A stretch of DNA of 64,000 nt, taken from assembly GCA_017940385.1 (NCBI GenBank), contig JAGAYS010000037.1:55050-119049 (forward strand), written 5' to 3'. The notes beneath the pieces are model-generated. The model ran no database searches, was not told the DNA's origin, and saw only the letters and a program-made list of their open reading frames with translations. Numbering within the stretch: the stretch's first letter is position 1; each line of letters opens with the position of its first letter. Shown here piece by piece: positions 9,668-19,890 of this stretch. The translations under genes were made by a program, and so were the position numbers. Source of the DNA: Ruminobacter sp. (lineage in GTDB: Bacteria > Pseudomonadota > Gammaproteobacteria > Enterobacterales > Succinivibrionaceae).

Positions 9668-9744
<77 letters not shown>

Positions 9745-9998: not shown

Positions 9999-10075
<77 letters not shown>

Positions 10076-16137: not shown

Positions 16138-17199
16138 CTAGTTATAATTACCTTTATTAGTCTTACAAAGTCTGCCTTTGTCTGCTTTCACCTGTCTGCG
16201 CCAAATAAGAACACCAAGCATGAATATGAAGAATGTAAGGGTGCAGGCAACGGTGTATTCATATCTTGTAACAGCACGTTCCCTTGAATCGGAAAGATTC
16301 TTGGCAACAAACATCTGAGTGTCAGTTATTTCATGCTTGATTTCATGAAGTTTTTCTCTTGCTGAGGTCGTAACCTGAATAAGTTCGTTTGTATTTCTTA
16401 CCAGATACTCATGCCTGCCGACCACACCGCTGTCATCAACACATGAATATTTGAAAAGAGTCATTACGGTACCAATTTCATTTTTGGCCTCCGGCATTTC
16501 CGAGTAAAGATTGTCAGTCCAGTTTTCGTATTCTTCAATAAAAACAGCTATCGTCGCCCTGGCTTTTTTAATTTCATCCGTATTGTTGGAACCCAAGGCC
16601 TCGAGAACCTTTTTTTCCACCAGTGACTGATAGGTCAGAAGATTCAGCATCAGATTATCAACATAGTCATCGGACACCTTCAGCTTCATTTCCTGAAGCA
16701 TCTGTCTGAATACCGGCTGCCAGACAATAAAATCGGCCTTACTTCTGCCGGCTTCCTGACCAAGCCGAAAATTGTAGCGTCTTTTTTCAGTCATCTGGTC
16801 CATGATGTTCAGGAAGTCTCCAGCCAGCATGGCAACTTTATTAATTTTGCTGTTGAGATAATCATCTGATGACTTACAGGAAAAACCGGAGAATCTGGCA
16901 AGACTGTATTCAAACTGCCGTCTCGAAGCATTCATCTCGACAAGACGTTTTTCGAACTCCTCTTCGGAGTTTGAAATGATTACGTCATGGTGATGGGCCG
17001 ACAGTGCGAGCAGGCTGTTTTCAACATCCTTTAACAGCAAAAGGAAACTGATTTCGGCAGTATTCACATCTTTCTGAGATGATGATTCACTGCCGACTTC
17101 AGCAATACTGCATTGCGAGAACAGATCGTCGGAATCTTTACTGCAACCGAATAAACCGAAACATATAACAAATCCAATAATCAAACAAAACTTATTCAT
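16138..17199 (-). CDS. Lipoprotein with helical periplasmic domain and C-terminal membrane helix, downstream of leuA-araC
   Basis: A 353-residue protein of unknown function. It starts with a lipoprotein signal (MNKFCLIIGFVICFGLFGC, lipid-attachment Cys19), continues with a long, charged, almost entirely alpha-helical region (about 20-310) and ends in a hydrophobic helix (about 315-337, TLTFFIFMLGVLIWRR) with a short basic cytoplasmic tail. The layout resembles the four-helix sensory part of chemoreceptors and histidine kinases, but no HAMP, signalling or kinase domain follows. The ATG at 17197-17199 is preceded by GAGGAGACTCAG and gives the lipobox; an upstream in-frame start at 17238 would bury it. 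It begins 50 bp after the leuA-araC stop on the same strand, so co-transcription is likely. Confidence 0.7.
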   Translation of the reverse strand: MNKFCLIIGFVICFGLFGCSKDSDDLFSQCSIAEVGSESSSQKDVNTAEISFLLLLKDVENSLLALSAHHHDVIISNSEEEFEKRLVEMNASRRQFEYSLARFSGFSCKSSDDYLNSKINKVAMLAGDFLNIMDQMTEKRRYNFRLGQEAGRSKADFIVWQPVFRQMLQEMKLKVSDDYVDNLMLNLLTYQSLVEKKVLEALGSNNTDEIKKARATIAVFIEEYENWTDNLYSEMPEAKNEIGTVMTLFKYSCVDDSGVVGRHEYLVRNTNELIQVTTSAREKLHEIKHEITDTQMFVAKNLSDSRERAVTRYEYTVACTLTFFIFMLGVLIWRRQVKADKGRLCKTNKGNYN

Positions 17200-17249
17200 C
17201 CTGAGTCTCCTCAACAGATACTTACCTCGGGACCACATTTATCAAGCTG

Positions 17250-19250
17250 CTACTTGATGGTCTGATTAAGATTTCTGTACTGCATCGGCGTCATTTCAAA
17301 GTATTTCTTGAATACTCTGATGAAATGTTCCACGTTAGGATATCCGATGGCATACGAAATGTTTTCAACTGTCATATTACCGTTCTTTAAGAGAGTTTTT
17401 GCCTTCTTCAGACGGATGGAAGTCAAATGTTCTCCAAAGGTCTTTCCGGACTTGTCCTTAATGTACTTGGAAATATACGGAGCAGACAGCCGGAAATATT
17501 CAGCCATGTCTTCAAGGGTTATTTCCTGGTACTTTGCCTGAATGTAATTAATCATGGCAATTAATCTGTCGTCCTTGGAGAGACTGTTGTTCTGGAGCTG
17601 AGGAAGTTTGTTTACGGCAACAACCAGAGCGTTGATTGAAGCCTTGATGATATCTTCATCAAGACCGGCACCCCAGTAACTTACACCGTTACAGAGAATC
17701 CCCACATATGCCATGGCCTTTGAGGATGTTCCCTTGGAAATGGCATGTTCCTCGTAAACAGACAGCTCATAGCTGATGCCGAAGTACTGTTTAATGGTAT
17801 TGCTTACCGCATCAAGTCTGCCGTTACCGTTGGCATCAACCACCGTCTTCTTGTCTCCGCAACAGATAACGGTCTCCGCCATAATGCCGTCATTCTGTTT
17901 GAAATGACTTTCGGAAATATGGAAGTTAGGAATATAGTTGATATAGTTTTCGGCAAAAATATCATACACAACCTGAGGAGAAAGTTCCTTGTGCTGTTCG
18001 TCAGACACCTGCTTAACGGCATAACCGACCTCTTCCCTCATCTTCATCGGAATGTTCAGAGAGAAATTATGGGAAAGAATATATGCAACACCACCCTTTC
18101 CTGACTGACTGTTGATTCTGATTACGTCAGAATCATAGGTTCTGCCGACATCAACAGGATCAATAGGAAGATACGGTACGTCCCAGATCTTCTTTTTCTG
18201 TGCTTCACGACAGGCCATTCCCTTGGCGATCGCATCCTGATGTGAACCGCTGAATGCCGTAAATACCAGATCACCGCCGTACGGCTGTCTTGGAGACACA
18301 TGCATTCCAGTCAGCTTTTCGTAAACCTCTCTGATGTGAGGCATGTTTGAAAAATCGAGGCCCGGATCGATACCGTATGAGAACATGTTCATGGCAACGG
18401 TGATTATATCCACGTTACCGGTTCTTTCTCCGTTACCGAAGAGAGTACCTTCAATTCTGTCGGCTCCGGCAAGCAGACCGAGCTCCGCATCAGCCACACC
18501 GCATCCGCGGTCGTTGTGAGGGTGCAGACTCAGTACCACGTTTTCACGGTACTTCAGATTCTTTGACAAAAATTCAATCTGGGTGGCAAACACGTGAGGC
18601 ATGGCAGTTTCCACGGTGGCAGGAACATTGATGATGGCCCTGCGTTCCTTGCTAGGCTGCCATACGTCAAGAACGGCGTTGCAAACATCGAGTGCATAAT
18701 CTACTTCAGTACCGTGAAAACTTTCCGGACTGTATTCAAAAGCGAAATCGCCTTCGGTTTCATCGGCGAGCTTCTTCAGAAGTTTGGCTCCGTCAATTGC
18801 CATCTGCTTAATCTGTTCCTTGTCCTTTCTGAACACCTGTTCACGCTGGGCAACTGAAGTTGAGTTATAGAGATGAACTACGGCATGAGGAGCACCTCTC
18901 AGGGCATCAAACGTCTTTCTGATAATGTGTTCCCTGGCCTGAGTCAGAACCTGGATGGTCACGTCATCAGGAATCATGTCTCTTTCAATCAGGGCTCTCA
19001 GGAACAGAAACTCCGTTTCGGAAGCGGCAGGAAAGCCTACCTCAATTTCCTTAAAACCGATATCCACAAGCATCTTGAAGAATTCAAGCTTCTCATCGAG
19101 TCCCATAGGTTCGATCAGAGCCTGATTACCGTCACGAAGATCAACTGAACACCAGACGGGAACCCTGTCAATATGATCCTTTTTTACCCAGTCGTAGGTT
19201 GCGACCGGAGGCATGAAATACTGACGTGTATACTTATCAAAATTCTTCAT
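17250..19250 (-). CDS. leuA: 2-isopropylmalate synthase fused to an AraC-type DNA-binding domain
   Basis: One uninterrupted frame of 666 residues. Residues about 1-555 are a complete 2-isopropylmalate synthase of the long (LeuA2/yeast-like) class: the metal/substrate motif SVDLRDGNQALIEPM (35-49), HPHNDRGCGVADAELGLLAGA (243-263, two metal-binding His), FGNGERTGNVD, and the C-terminal leucine-feedback domain (about 445-550). Residues about 560-660 are a full AraC/XylS domain with two helix-turn-helix units: EITLEDMAEYFRLSAPYISKY (first) and NMTVENISYAIGYPNVEHFI then RVFKKYFEMTPMQYR (second, the family signature). A normal LeuA2 ends at about 555-560, so the AraC part is an added C-terminal module. 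AAGGAGAACATA precedes the ATG. No leuBCD genes are near. The obvious inference is an enzyme that also binds DNA, perhaps sensing leucine through its regulatory domain; this is not shown by the sequence. Confidence 0.93.
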   Translation of the reverse strand: MKNFDKYTRQYFMPPVATYDWVKKDHIDRVPVWCSVDLRDGNQALIEPMGLDEKLEFFKMLVDIGFKEIEVGFPAASETEFLFLRALIERDMIPDDVTIQVLTQAREHIIRKTFDALRGAPHAVVHLYNSTSVAQREQVFRKDKEQIKQMAIDGAKLLKKLADETEGDFAFEYSPESFHGTEVDYALDVCNAVLDVWQPSKERRAIINVPATVETAMPHVFATQIEFLSKNLKYRENVVLSLHPHNDRGCGVADAELGLLAGADRIEGTLFGNGERTGNVDIITVAMNMFSYGIDPGLDFSNMPHIREVYEKLTGMHVSPRQPYGGDLVFTAFSGSHQDAIAKGMACREAQKKKIWDVPYLPIDPVDVGRTYDSDVIRINSQSGKGGVAYILSHNFSLNIPMKMREEVGYAVKQVSDEQHKELSPQVVYDIFAENYINYIPNFHISESHFKQNDGIMAETVICCGDKKTVVDANGNGRLDAVSNTIKQYFGISYELSVYEEHAISKGTSSKAMAYVGILCNGVSYWGAGLDEDIIKASINALVVAVNKLPQLQNNSLSKDDRLIAMINYIQAKYQEITLEDMAEYFRLSAPYISKYIKDKSGKTFGEHLTSIRLKKAKTLLKNGNMTVENISYAIGYPNVEHFIRVFKKYFEMTPMQYRNLNQTIK

Positions 19251-19890
19251 TATGTTCTCCTTGTCATGATCGACGGAAATCCGTTTTACTTCCGCTTAAA
19301 TGACCTGTTTAAATAATCGGTATGGATAACAGCATGATTCTCGATGATGAACCGCAGAGATAAATCCGAACACAATTCATCATTAAAATAAATCAATATA
19401 TTTGACTTAATTTTATCACTAAAAAAACAGTTTACAATGATTATATTTAATCTATTTGACTGATATTTATTAATATTTTTATTCTTTAGCAGGTTTTTCA
19501 CCTTATTTCATGTCTGACGCGAATTAACGAAACGGCCCGTCTCTGTGTTTTCAGTGTCTTCATCCGACTTAATTCCCATTGTTTTAGCGGTTATTTATCT
19601 CACTGCAAAAATAAAAATAAGAAGCTGCGGAAAATGAAACAATAAGTCGCTGAAAAATCATACGGATTATCCGGAAGTAAATTCAGACATAAACTTCCGG
19701 GATTTCATAAAATACCGCCGCAAAACAACTTCCGGAAGCATGACATATCATTATCTAATACTTAAATCACGGATCTTTTTCGTATAAGAAGCTAATATAT
19801 GATTAAAAGTGTGCTATATTTTCACAAAAAATAAAAACTTAAATAAATATGGCACAACAGCAGAATAATCAATGACATTGGGGACACCGC
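19251..19890. other. AT-rich divergent intergenic region between leuA-araC and malE
   Basis: 640 bp without a convincing gene. It separates the divergent leuA-araC and malE genes and so contains both promoters. No leucine-rich leader peptide and no attenuator hairpin were recognised upstream of leuA, although a leader of the enteric type would have been expected if leuA were attenuated. It is the most likely place for a binding site of the AraC domain of the LeuA fusion. Confidence 0.5.

Follow-up and report, generated by a model that had tools for sequence, protein, structure and literature searches.

The question that this locus raises is whether a biosynthetic enzyme may, by means of a DNA-binding domain of its own, also regulate the gene that encodes it. 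In the 64-kb window (the whole stretch of Ruminobacter sp. DNA that was analysed), positions 17250-19250 of the reverse strand are occupied by a single open frame of 666 codons with an ATG start and zero internal stops. The sequence-only reading had described its product as an uninterrupted 2-isopropylmalate synthase (IPMS) of the LeuA2 type followed by a full double helix-turn-helix (HTH) domain of the AraC family, and this was confirmed by the open frame and by Pfam and NCBIfam searches, with full-length homologues in other genomes. Enzyme and DNA-binding domain are joined in one chain; that this chain acts on its own gene is strongly suggested by the DNA sites found upstream of it.

Domains, conservation and metabolic place of the fused protein

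All five Pfam domains of the protein exceeded their gathering cut-offs: the catalytic HMGL-like TIM barrel (residues 32-308; 18327-19157, reverse strand), IPMS_D2 (327-392), the leucine-binding regulatory domain LeuA_dimer (425-549; 17604-17978, reverse strand), HTH_18 (582-660; 17271-17507, reverse strand) and HTH_AraC (622-660). The HTH_18 match, with 71.1 bits against a cut-off of 33.6, places two HTH motifs in one C-terminal domain. Furthermore, the NCBIfam model PRK03739 (LeuA2 type) covered residues 5-548 with 795.9 bits against a cut-off of 455; the equivalog cut-off of TIGR00970 was missed (664 versus 697.4).

An AlphaFold model based on 33 sequences was moderate overall (mean pLDDT 77.5, pTM 0.54), with an unreliable arrangement of domains. 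It predicted two beta-beta-beta-alpha repeats in the leucine domain (residues 444-547) and then seven helices (561-664), with a block pLDDT of 79-89 across residues 561-660; most of the leucine domain and of these helices was modelled confidently, and 322-384, a stretch close to the active site, poorly. The helix that closes the leucine domain spans 534-547, and the HTH domain begins shortly afterwards, at 561; the linker between the enzyme and the HTH domain is the least conserved part of the protein. The closest solved enzyme, by both sequence and fold, is LeuA of M. tuberculosis (1sr9, 3fig), and the expected IPMS structures head the best 50 fold-search matches listed.

Among 33 aligned fusions, residues R39, D40, E176, H243, H245, H337 and Y360 are invariant; counting along the sequence alignment, we take them to be the counterparts of M. 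tuberculosis R80, D81, E218, H285, H287, H379 and Y410, presumably with the same roles. The GNG motif of the leucine domain (G475, N476, G477) is invariant in the same set, as are D480 and A481. In the HTH domain, Y592, S594, I597, E641, H642, F643, R645 and F647 are invariant, and P591 and K595 are conserved in at least 90% of the fusions; the helices carrying Y592 to F647 are presumably the DNA-touching recognition helices of the AraC family. The sequence-only reading had named the loss of DNA-contact residues as evidence against it; the recognition helices are conserved in the 33 fusions. The dN/dS ratio of the HTH domain was 0.003-0.035 in the 7 of 12 pairs yielding a value (4 of these 7 with dS above 1), dS being saturated in the remaining five. 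By these estimates, the HTH domain is under strong purifying selection.

The same reading had also pointed to a stop codon or separate pieces at residues 555-560 as a sign that the fusion is not real. Such a break was seen in two loci, L099 (genome G148) and L189 (G131), where a frameshift in the linker has left the HTH domain in another frame and the operator is kept. In L099 the frameshift sits at a run of A, and a sequencing error, decay or recoding may lie behind both cases. Among the remaining unfused loci that were examined, leuA2 was never followed directly by an HTH domain.

It should be added that the LeuA_dimer family was found once, as the fusion, in all 13 fusion genomes checked outside Ruminobacter (G007, G011 and 11 Lachnospiraceae), a count that covers LeuA_dimer-bearing proteins, besides which IPMS enzymes without this domain may exist. 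Of 30 fusion genomes, 29 encode LeuB, and all 26 Lachnospiraceae among them have a LeuC-type protein; in four Succinivibrionaceae fusion genomes, no match to the LeuC family found in Lachnospiraceae was obtained. Since the fusion is the sole LeuA_dimer protein in the 13 genomes and LeuB and LeuC accompany it, it presumably supplies the leucine pathway outside Ruminobacter, and we infer that it is an active, leucine-inhibited isopropylmalate synthase. The four Ruminobacter genomes encode two LeuA_dimer proteins each, and in the genome of the window the second IPMS heads a native, intact leuABCD operon, the LeuC of which is of the TIGR00170 type.

As to its surroundings, an open frame at 16138-17238 (reverse strand, 366 aa) begins 11 nt behind the fusion gene. 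Judged by eye, it starts like a lipoprotein and has a transmembrane-like stretch towards its end, and it gave no match in Pfam and NCBIfam searches. It was rejected as an operon partner, being absent from this position in R. amylophilus. Elsewhere in the window, two tRNA genes of equal Rfam score lie near each other at 9668-9741 and 9999-10072 (forward strand).

A putative operator and its position in the promoter

The spaced word TAAA-N4-ATCA was found in 66 of the 76 upstream regions (300 bp) of fusion genes without a T-box motif; its mean was 2.8 over five shuffles, where the commonest word of any kind reached 22. The full motif is ATTAAAATAnATCAAnAAAAnTGATTAAATTTAATCATT, with a half-site TTAAA-N4-ATCA that occurs in inverted and direct arrangement. 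Within each half-site, two boxes are spaced by about one helical turn, as the double HTH of AraC proteins needs. With a matrix trained on 71 of these 76 loci, the scores of which are hence not independent, sites above 20 bits were found in 67 of the 76, and 380 shuffled regions reached at most 10. The opposite strand of the same regions scored up to 34 bits, in line with a near-palindromic core and with a second site, O2, so that the orientation of the operator is not sharply defined.

Across 132 loci, sites above 15 bits preceded the LeuA2 gene in 85 of 92 fused loci and in 0 of 40 unfused ones, counts that are taken over related species and represent few independent events; the other seven fused genes had no site above this threshold. 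Held-out fused loci behaved alike, 15 of 16 exceeding 15 bits (12 of 13 with a T-box; L099, L189 and L192). In a test restricted to four independent pairs, the operator followed the HTH domain in 3.8 on average, with a median p of 0.125. Pairs of half-sites were inverted at an offset of 19 in 62 of 89 loci and direct at an offset of 23 in 40 of 89; in shuffles and in 31 unfused loci, no offset occurred more than once. The commonest arrangement is thus inverted, unlike the direct repeats that AraC proteins usually bind, and would suit the two-fold symmetry of an enzyme dimer.

The region 19251-19890, where the operator had been expected, indeed contains it: O1, ATTAATAAATATCAGTCAAATAGATTAAATATAATCATT, lies at 19474-19436 on the reverse strand, and O2 faces it at 19382-19420 on the forward strand. 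A matrix built from Lachnospiraceae only (77 sites) gave O1 33.4 and O2 28.0 bits, more than any other site in the window; the next two (13.5 and 1.5 bits) belong to the same promoter, and all those listed elsewhere fell below 0. The maximum over 1000 shuffles was 15.7 bits, against 33.4 for O1. The g9 Succinivibrionaceae (L011, L012) scored 13.4 and 9.9 bits, having merely an inverted pair near the start codon. In a group of Lachnospiraceae loci (L085, L087, L089, L091-L093, L095-L098), O1 holds a longer palindrome such as GGAAAGTGA...TCACTTTCC; in this L085-L098 group O2, where found, lies about 15 bp farther downstream.

A consensus scan of the window independently placed a -35-like hexamer, TTGTAA, at 19432-19437 and an extended -10, TG-N-TAAAAT, with the hexamer at 19410-19415, both on the reverse strand; this was one of four promoter-like sites in the window, and shuffles gave a mean of 7.2. 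An extended -10 stood behind O1 in 78 of 85 loci versus 4 of 85 shuffled ones, 67 of the matches beginning 60 bp and 8 beginning 59 bp after the O1 start. Given this near-constant distance, the last operator box touches the -35 region, as it does here at TTGTAA; boxes likewise touch the -35 in class II activation by AraC-type proteins. The O2 of the window is a whole operator on the opposite strand, which covers the -10 and the probable start site, with its reverse half-site TTGATTTATTTTAA at 19396-19383. Such a reverse half-site was present behind O1 in 41/85 loci and 0/85 shuffled ones, the distance from the first half-site being 76-78 bp in 20 loci, 84-93 bp in another 20 and 43 bp in one. 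In the other 44 of the 85 no O2 was found, and repression through O2 therefore cannot be general.

The range of targets appeared narrow. In 40 fusion genomes, the O1 pattern with up to three mismatches occurred at the fusion promoter in 30 and was not matched there in 10; elsewhere it gave two hits with three mismatches each, by which a regulon beyond leuA was rejected, and the backward control of the pattern gave zero hits. Scattered further matches of the inverted-pair pattern (up to two mismatches) in 20 genomes are mostly chance, probably, since its backward control also matched in 4 of the 20. Two of 29 leuB promoters scored above 15 bits (29.9 and 15.6). No operator was found at 29 LeuC-type loci (tblastn, 600 nt upstream; two locus pairs overlap and one further locus has no upstream DNA). 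No neighbour family was common to more than 13 of 89 fusion loci, many of which have just 1.5 kb of flank. Taken together, the system appears to consist of one gene that targets itself, with leuB recruited occasionally.

Three further sites were noted. An operator-like site lies before leuB-ilvD (L221:4281-4313, G409), a possible enlargement of the regulon. A single half-site, TTAAAATAAATCAA, has similar surroundings in three Ruminobacter genomes (G000:C31:54268-54300, G003:C11:6625 and G002:C41:25476), the G000 copy sitting between truA and a cmoM-like gene. Moreover, an inverted operator pair with zero mismatches was found near a contig end, beside an unassigned open frame of 426 aa (L220:259-291, G068:C77).

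The most economical reading of the promoter data is that the fused domain recognises this predicted operator and acts on its own promoter, which we regard as very probable.

Distribution of the fusion and of the leucine T-box

Full-length relatives were found in the three other Ruminobacter genomes, with identities of 98% (uncultured), 95% (R. amylophilus DSM 1361) and 89%, so that the fusion is present in sister genomes. Ruminobacter is a member of the Succinivibrionaceae, where 9 of 35 genomes sampled (the genome of the window counted) and three genera carry the fusion; it was absent from all 24 genomes of other families of the same order. In the Lachnospiraceae it was of full length (match reaching residue 659 or beyond) in at least 89 of 397 genomes, besides G131 and G148 with the linker frameshift and G231, where it is cut by the contig end. 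In 391 Clostridia sampled, 13 matches were full-length (E up to 1e-230), some of them from genomes already counted. Cultured carriers include Ruminobacter amylophilus, Roseburia hominis and R. faecis. The expectation that the architecture recurs in gut bacteria was borne out, cultured and uncultured species being carriers.

When 132 enzyme domains were placed in a FastTree tree, eight Succinivibrionaceae sequences formed one clade (support 90), nested in a starred clade of 11 of which the remaining three are from Lachnospiraceae. Because of this position, the fusion seems to have arisen in Lachnospiraceae and entered Succinivibrionaceae from there. The presence of the HTH domain changes about six times on the tree; unfused sequences nested among fused ones may be HTH losses, gain and loss being inseparable on this tree. 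Left out were 13 near-duplicates (more than 97% alike), L001-L003, the partial L064, L067 (21% identity), the short stretches L193 and L201, and L009/L143, which have less than 200 nt upstream.

In Lachnospiraceae, the antiterminator motif of a T-box preceded leuA2 in 24 of 28 unfused and 14 of 84 fused loci, 13 of these 14 being supported by Rfam and hence counted as T-boxes (13/84); these figures, too, come from related species with few independent events. The Rfam gathering score was reached in 11 of the 14 (L128, L133, L038, L079, L080, L081, L090, L158, L138, L148 and L149) and just missed in L124 and L130 (90.1 and 90.7 versus 93); in L126, Rfam found no T-box behind the motif. At gathering score, Rfam detected a T-box before leuA2 in 12 of 15 loci that had initially been classed as unfused versus 2 of 25 fused ones, and L099, one of the three T-box-less among these 15, is the frameshifted fusion. 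All 12 motif hits of unfused genes that were put to Rfam were confirmed.

GAACTC, with its leucine codon, stood at the specifier place in 26 of 44 motif-bearing loci, the position being judged by eye. In 12 fused loci with both elements, the operator lies farther upstream than the T-box, which is the order to be expected if a promoter site precedes a leader. Comparison of T-box and HTH domain over the four independent pairs gave 0.1 differing the same way, 1.0 the opposite way and 2.9 without difference. A scan of the window for riboswitches, leaders or T-boxes found none. Apparently, the fusion has largely displaced the leucine T-box leader in Lachnospiraceae. It should also be mentioned that Clostridiales-1 RNAs were detected at L109:4722-4885 (reverse), L047:12012-12210 (reverse) and L149:10304-10470 (forward), the first of them between the T-box and an unfused leuA2.

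Proposed mechanism, rival explanations and known systems

We propose that the fusion is an autoregulatory trigger enzyme whose leucine-binding IPMS part takes the place of the sensor of AraC, and we assign to this reading a probability of about 0.7. In a homodimeric, leucine-inhibited IPMS, each of the two leucine-binding domains would be followed directly by an AraC-type DNA-binding domain. When leucine is scarce, the protein would occupy O1, next to the -35, and recruit RNA polymerase to its own gene, in the manner of class II activation, at a promoter with an extended -10 but a poor -35. Binding of leucine would move the regulatory domains and thereby reposition or release the HTH pairs; where O2 exists, a dimer at the -10 and start site would repress. 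One gene would thus be enzyme, sensor, regulator and target, and would have passed from Lachnospiraceae, where it arose, to Succinivibrionaceae together with its operator.

Parts of this proposal differ in strength. That leucine is the switching ligand we hold to be somewhat better than an even bet, and activation from O1 with repression from O2 has an even chance. Stated as a whole, that a complete biosynthetic enzyme serves as an AraC sensor, with a symmetric IPMS dimer that senses leucine and moves its HTH pairs back and forth from an activating O1 to a repressing O2, and that this device displaced the leucyl-tRNA-sensing T-box and, being self-contained, crossed from Bacillota into Pseudomonadota with its regulation preserved, the picture stays tentative, a little short of even odds.

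Autoregulation could also take its signal from the catalytic site, by occupancy with 2-ketoisovalerate or alpha-isopropylmalate, and not from leucine. Invariance is equally strict at the catalytic residues and in the leucine domain, and alpha-isopropylmalate is, in the available part of the source (PMC6844326), the activator of Leu3p/LeuB in fungi, of which yeast Leu3p would be the parallel; as opposed to this, the HTH domain closely follows the last helix of the leucine domain in the model (534-547, then 561), and many T-boxes of the replaced system read a leucine codon. We consider this version unlikely, if the strongest of the rivals. It is less likely still that the HTH domain merely tethers the enzyme to DNA, or makes of it a plain autorepressor or activator free of metabolite control. 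That view gains from the nature of the support, which consists of DNA sites and not of ligands, and from the own promoter being nearly the sole target found, but it has the HTH domain behind a ligand-binding domain that is itself conserved, and the loss of T-box control of the committed step would be costly if nothing took its place.

The motif might, further, belong to another regulator, the HTH domain acting elsewhere or being vestigial. Binding of the motif by the fusion is deduced from sequence, which leaves some room for this; however, the motif marks the LeuA2 promoter in 85 of 92 fused loci and in 0 of 40 unfused ones, accompanies the fusion in another phylum, is nearly unique per genome and consists of two boxes about one helical turn apart, and the HTH domain is under constraint, all of which makes such a regulator improbable. 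Finally, an assembly artefact or recent pseudogene fusion, of which the frameshifts of L099 and L189 might be reminiscent, is refuted by independent genomes including cultured relatives, at least 89 Lachnospiraceae with varied neighbourhoods and the low dN/dS of the HTH domain, and its likelihood is negligible.

Returning to the autoregulatory trigger enzyme, it would, if true, unite the two controls of a committed step, feedback inhibition and feedback on transcription, in one allosteric protein of rumen and gut bacteria. It would also be a clear instance of an RNA leader apparently giving way to a protein regulator, including loci that have both, with the operator upstream of the T-box, and of a gene carrying its own regulation along in transfer between phyla. 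What is new in this analysis is the operator, with half-site TTAAA-N4-ATCA, before the fusion genes. Among the matches listed from the open-access literature, a scope outside which most subscription papers fall, no description of the fusion was found in the available portions of text. A survey of 106 companion domains for AraC/XylS has none of the terms isopropylmalate, HMGL or LeuA in the available main text (PMC5882156), and neither isopropylmalate nor leuA occurs in the available text of a comparative genomics paper on Roseburia (PMC7478625).

The closest precedent is PutA, a metabolic enzyme that contains a DNA-binding domain and is an autogenous regulator, according to the available part of the source (PMC5293562); as in the fusion, enzyme and DNA-binding domain form one chain. 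PutA differs in being a proline-catabolic flavoenzyme and autorepressor with an N-terminal ribbon-helix-helix (RHH), whereas the fusion is biosynthetic, has an AraC domain and an operator in an activator-like position. In fungi, Leu3p/LeuB couples transcription of leucine genes to the IPMS step through alpha-isopropylmalate (PMC6844326, available part); there the transcription factor is separate, and here IPMS itself carries the DNA-binding domain. The leucine T-box likewise gives leucine-responsive control of leuA, but as an RNA that senses tRNA charging after initiation, whereas the fusion would act at initiation on the free metabolite. M. tuberculosis LeuA (1sr9, 3fig) has the same domain order up to residue 549 of the fusion and no AraC domain. 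AraC itself, the arabinose regulator, has a sensor domain followed by the same double HTH, with boxes adjoining the -35 and another operator through which it could repress; in the fusion, by contrast, the sensor is a complete enzyme, the half-sites are mainly inverted, and almost only its own gene is targeted.
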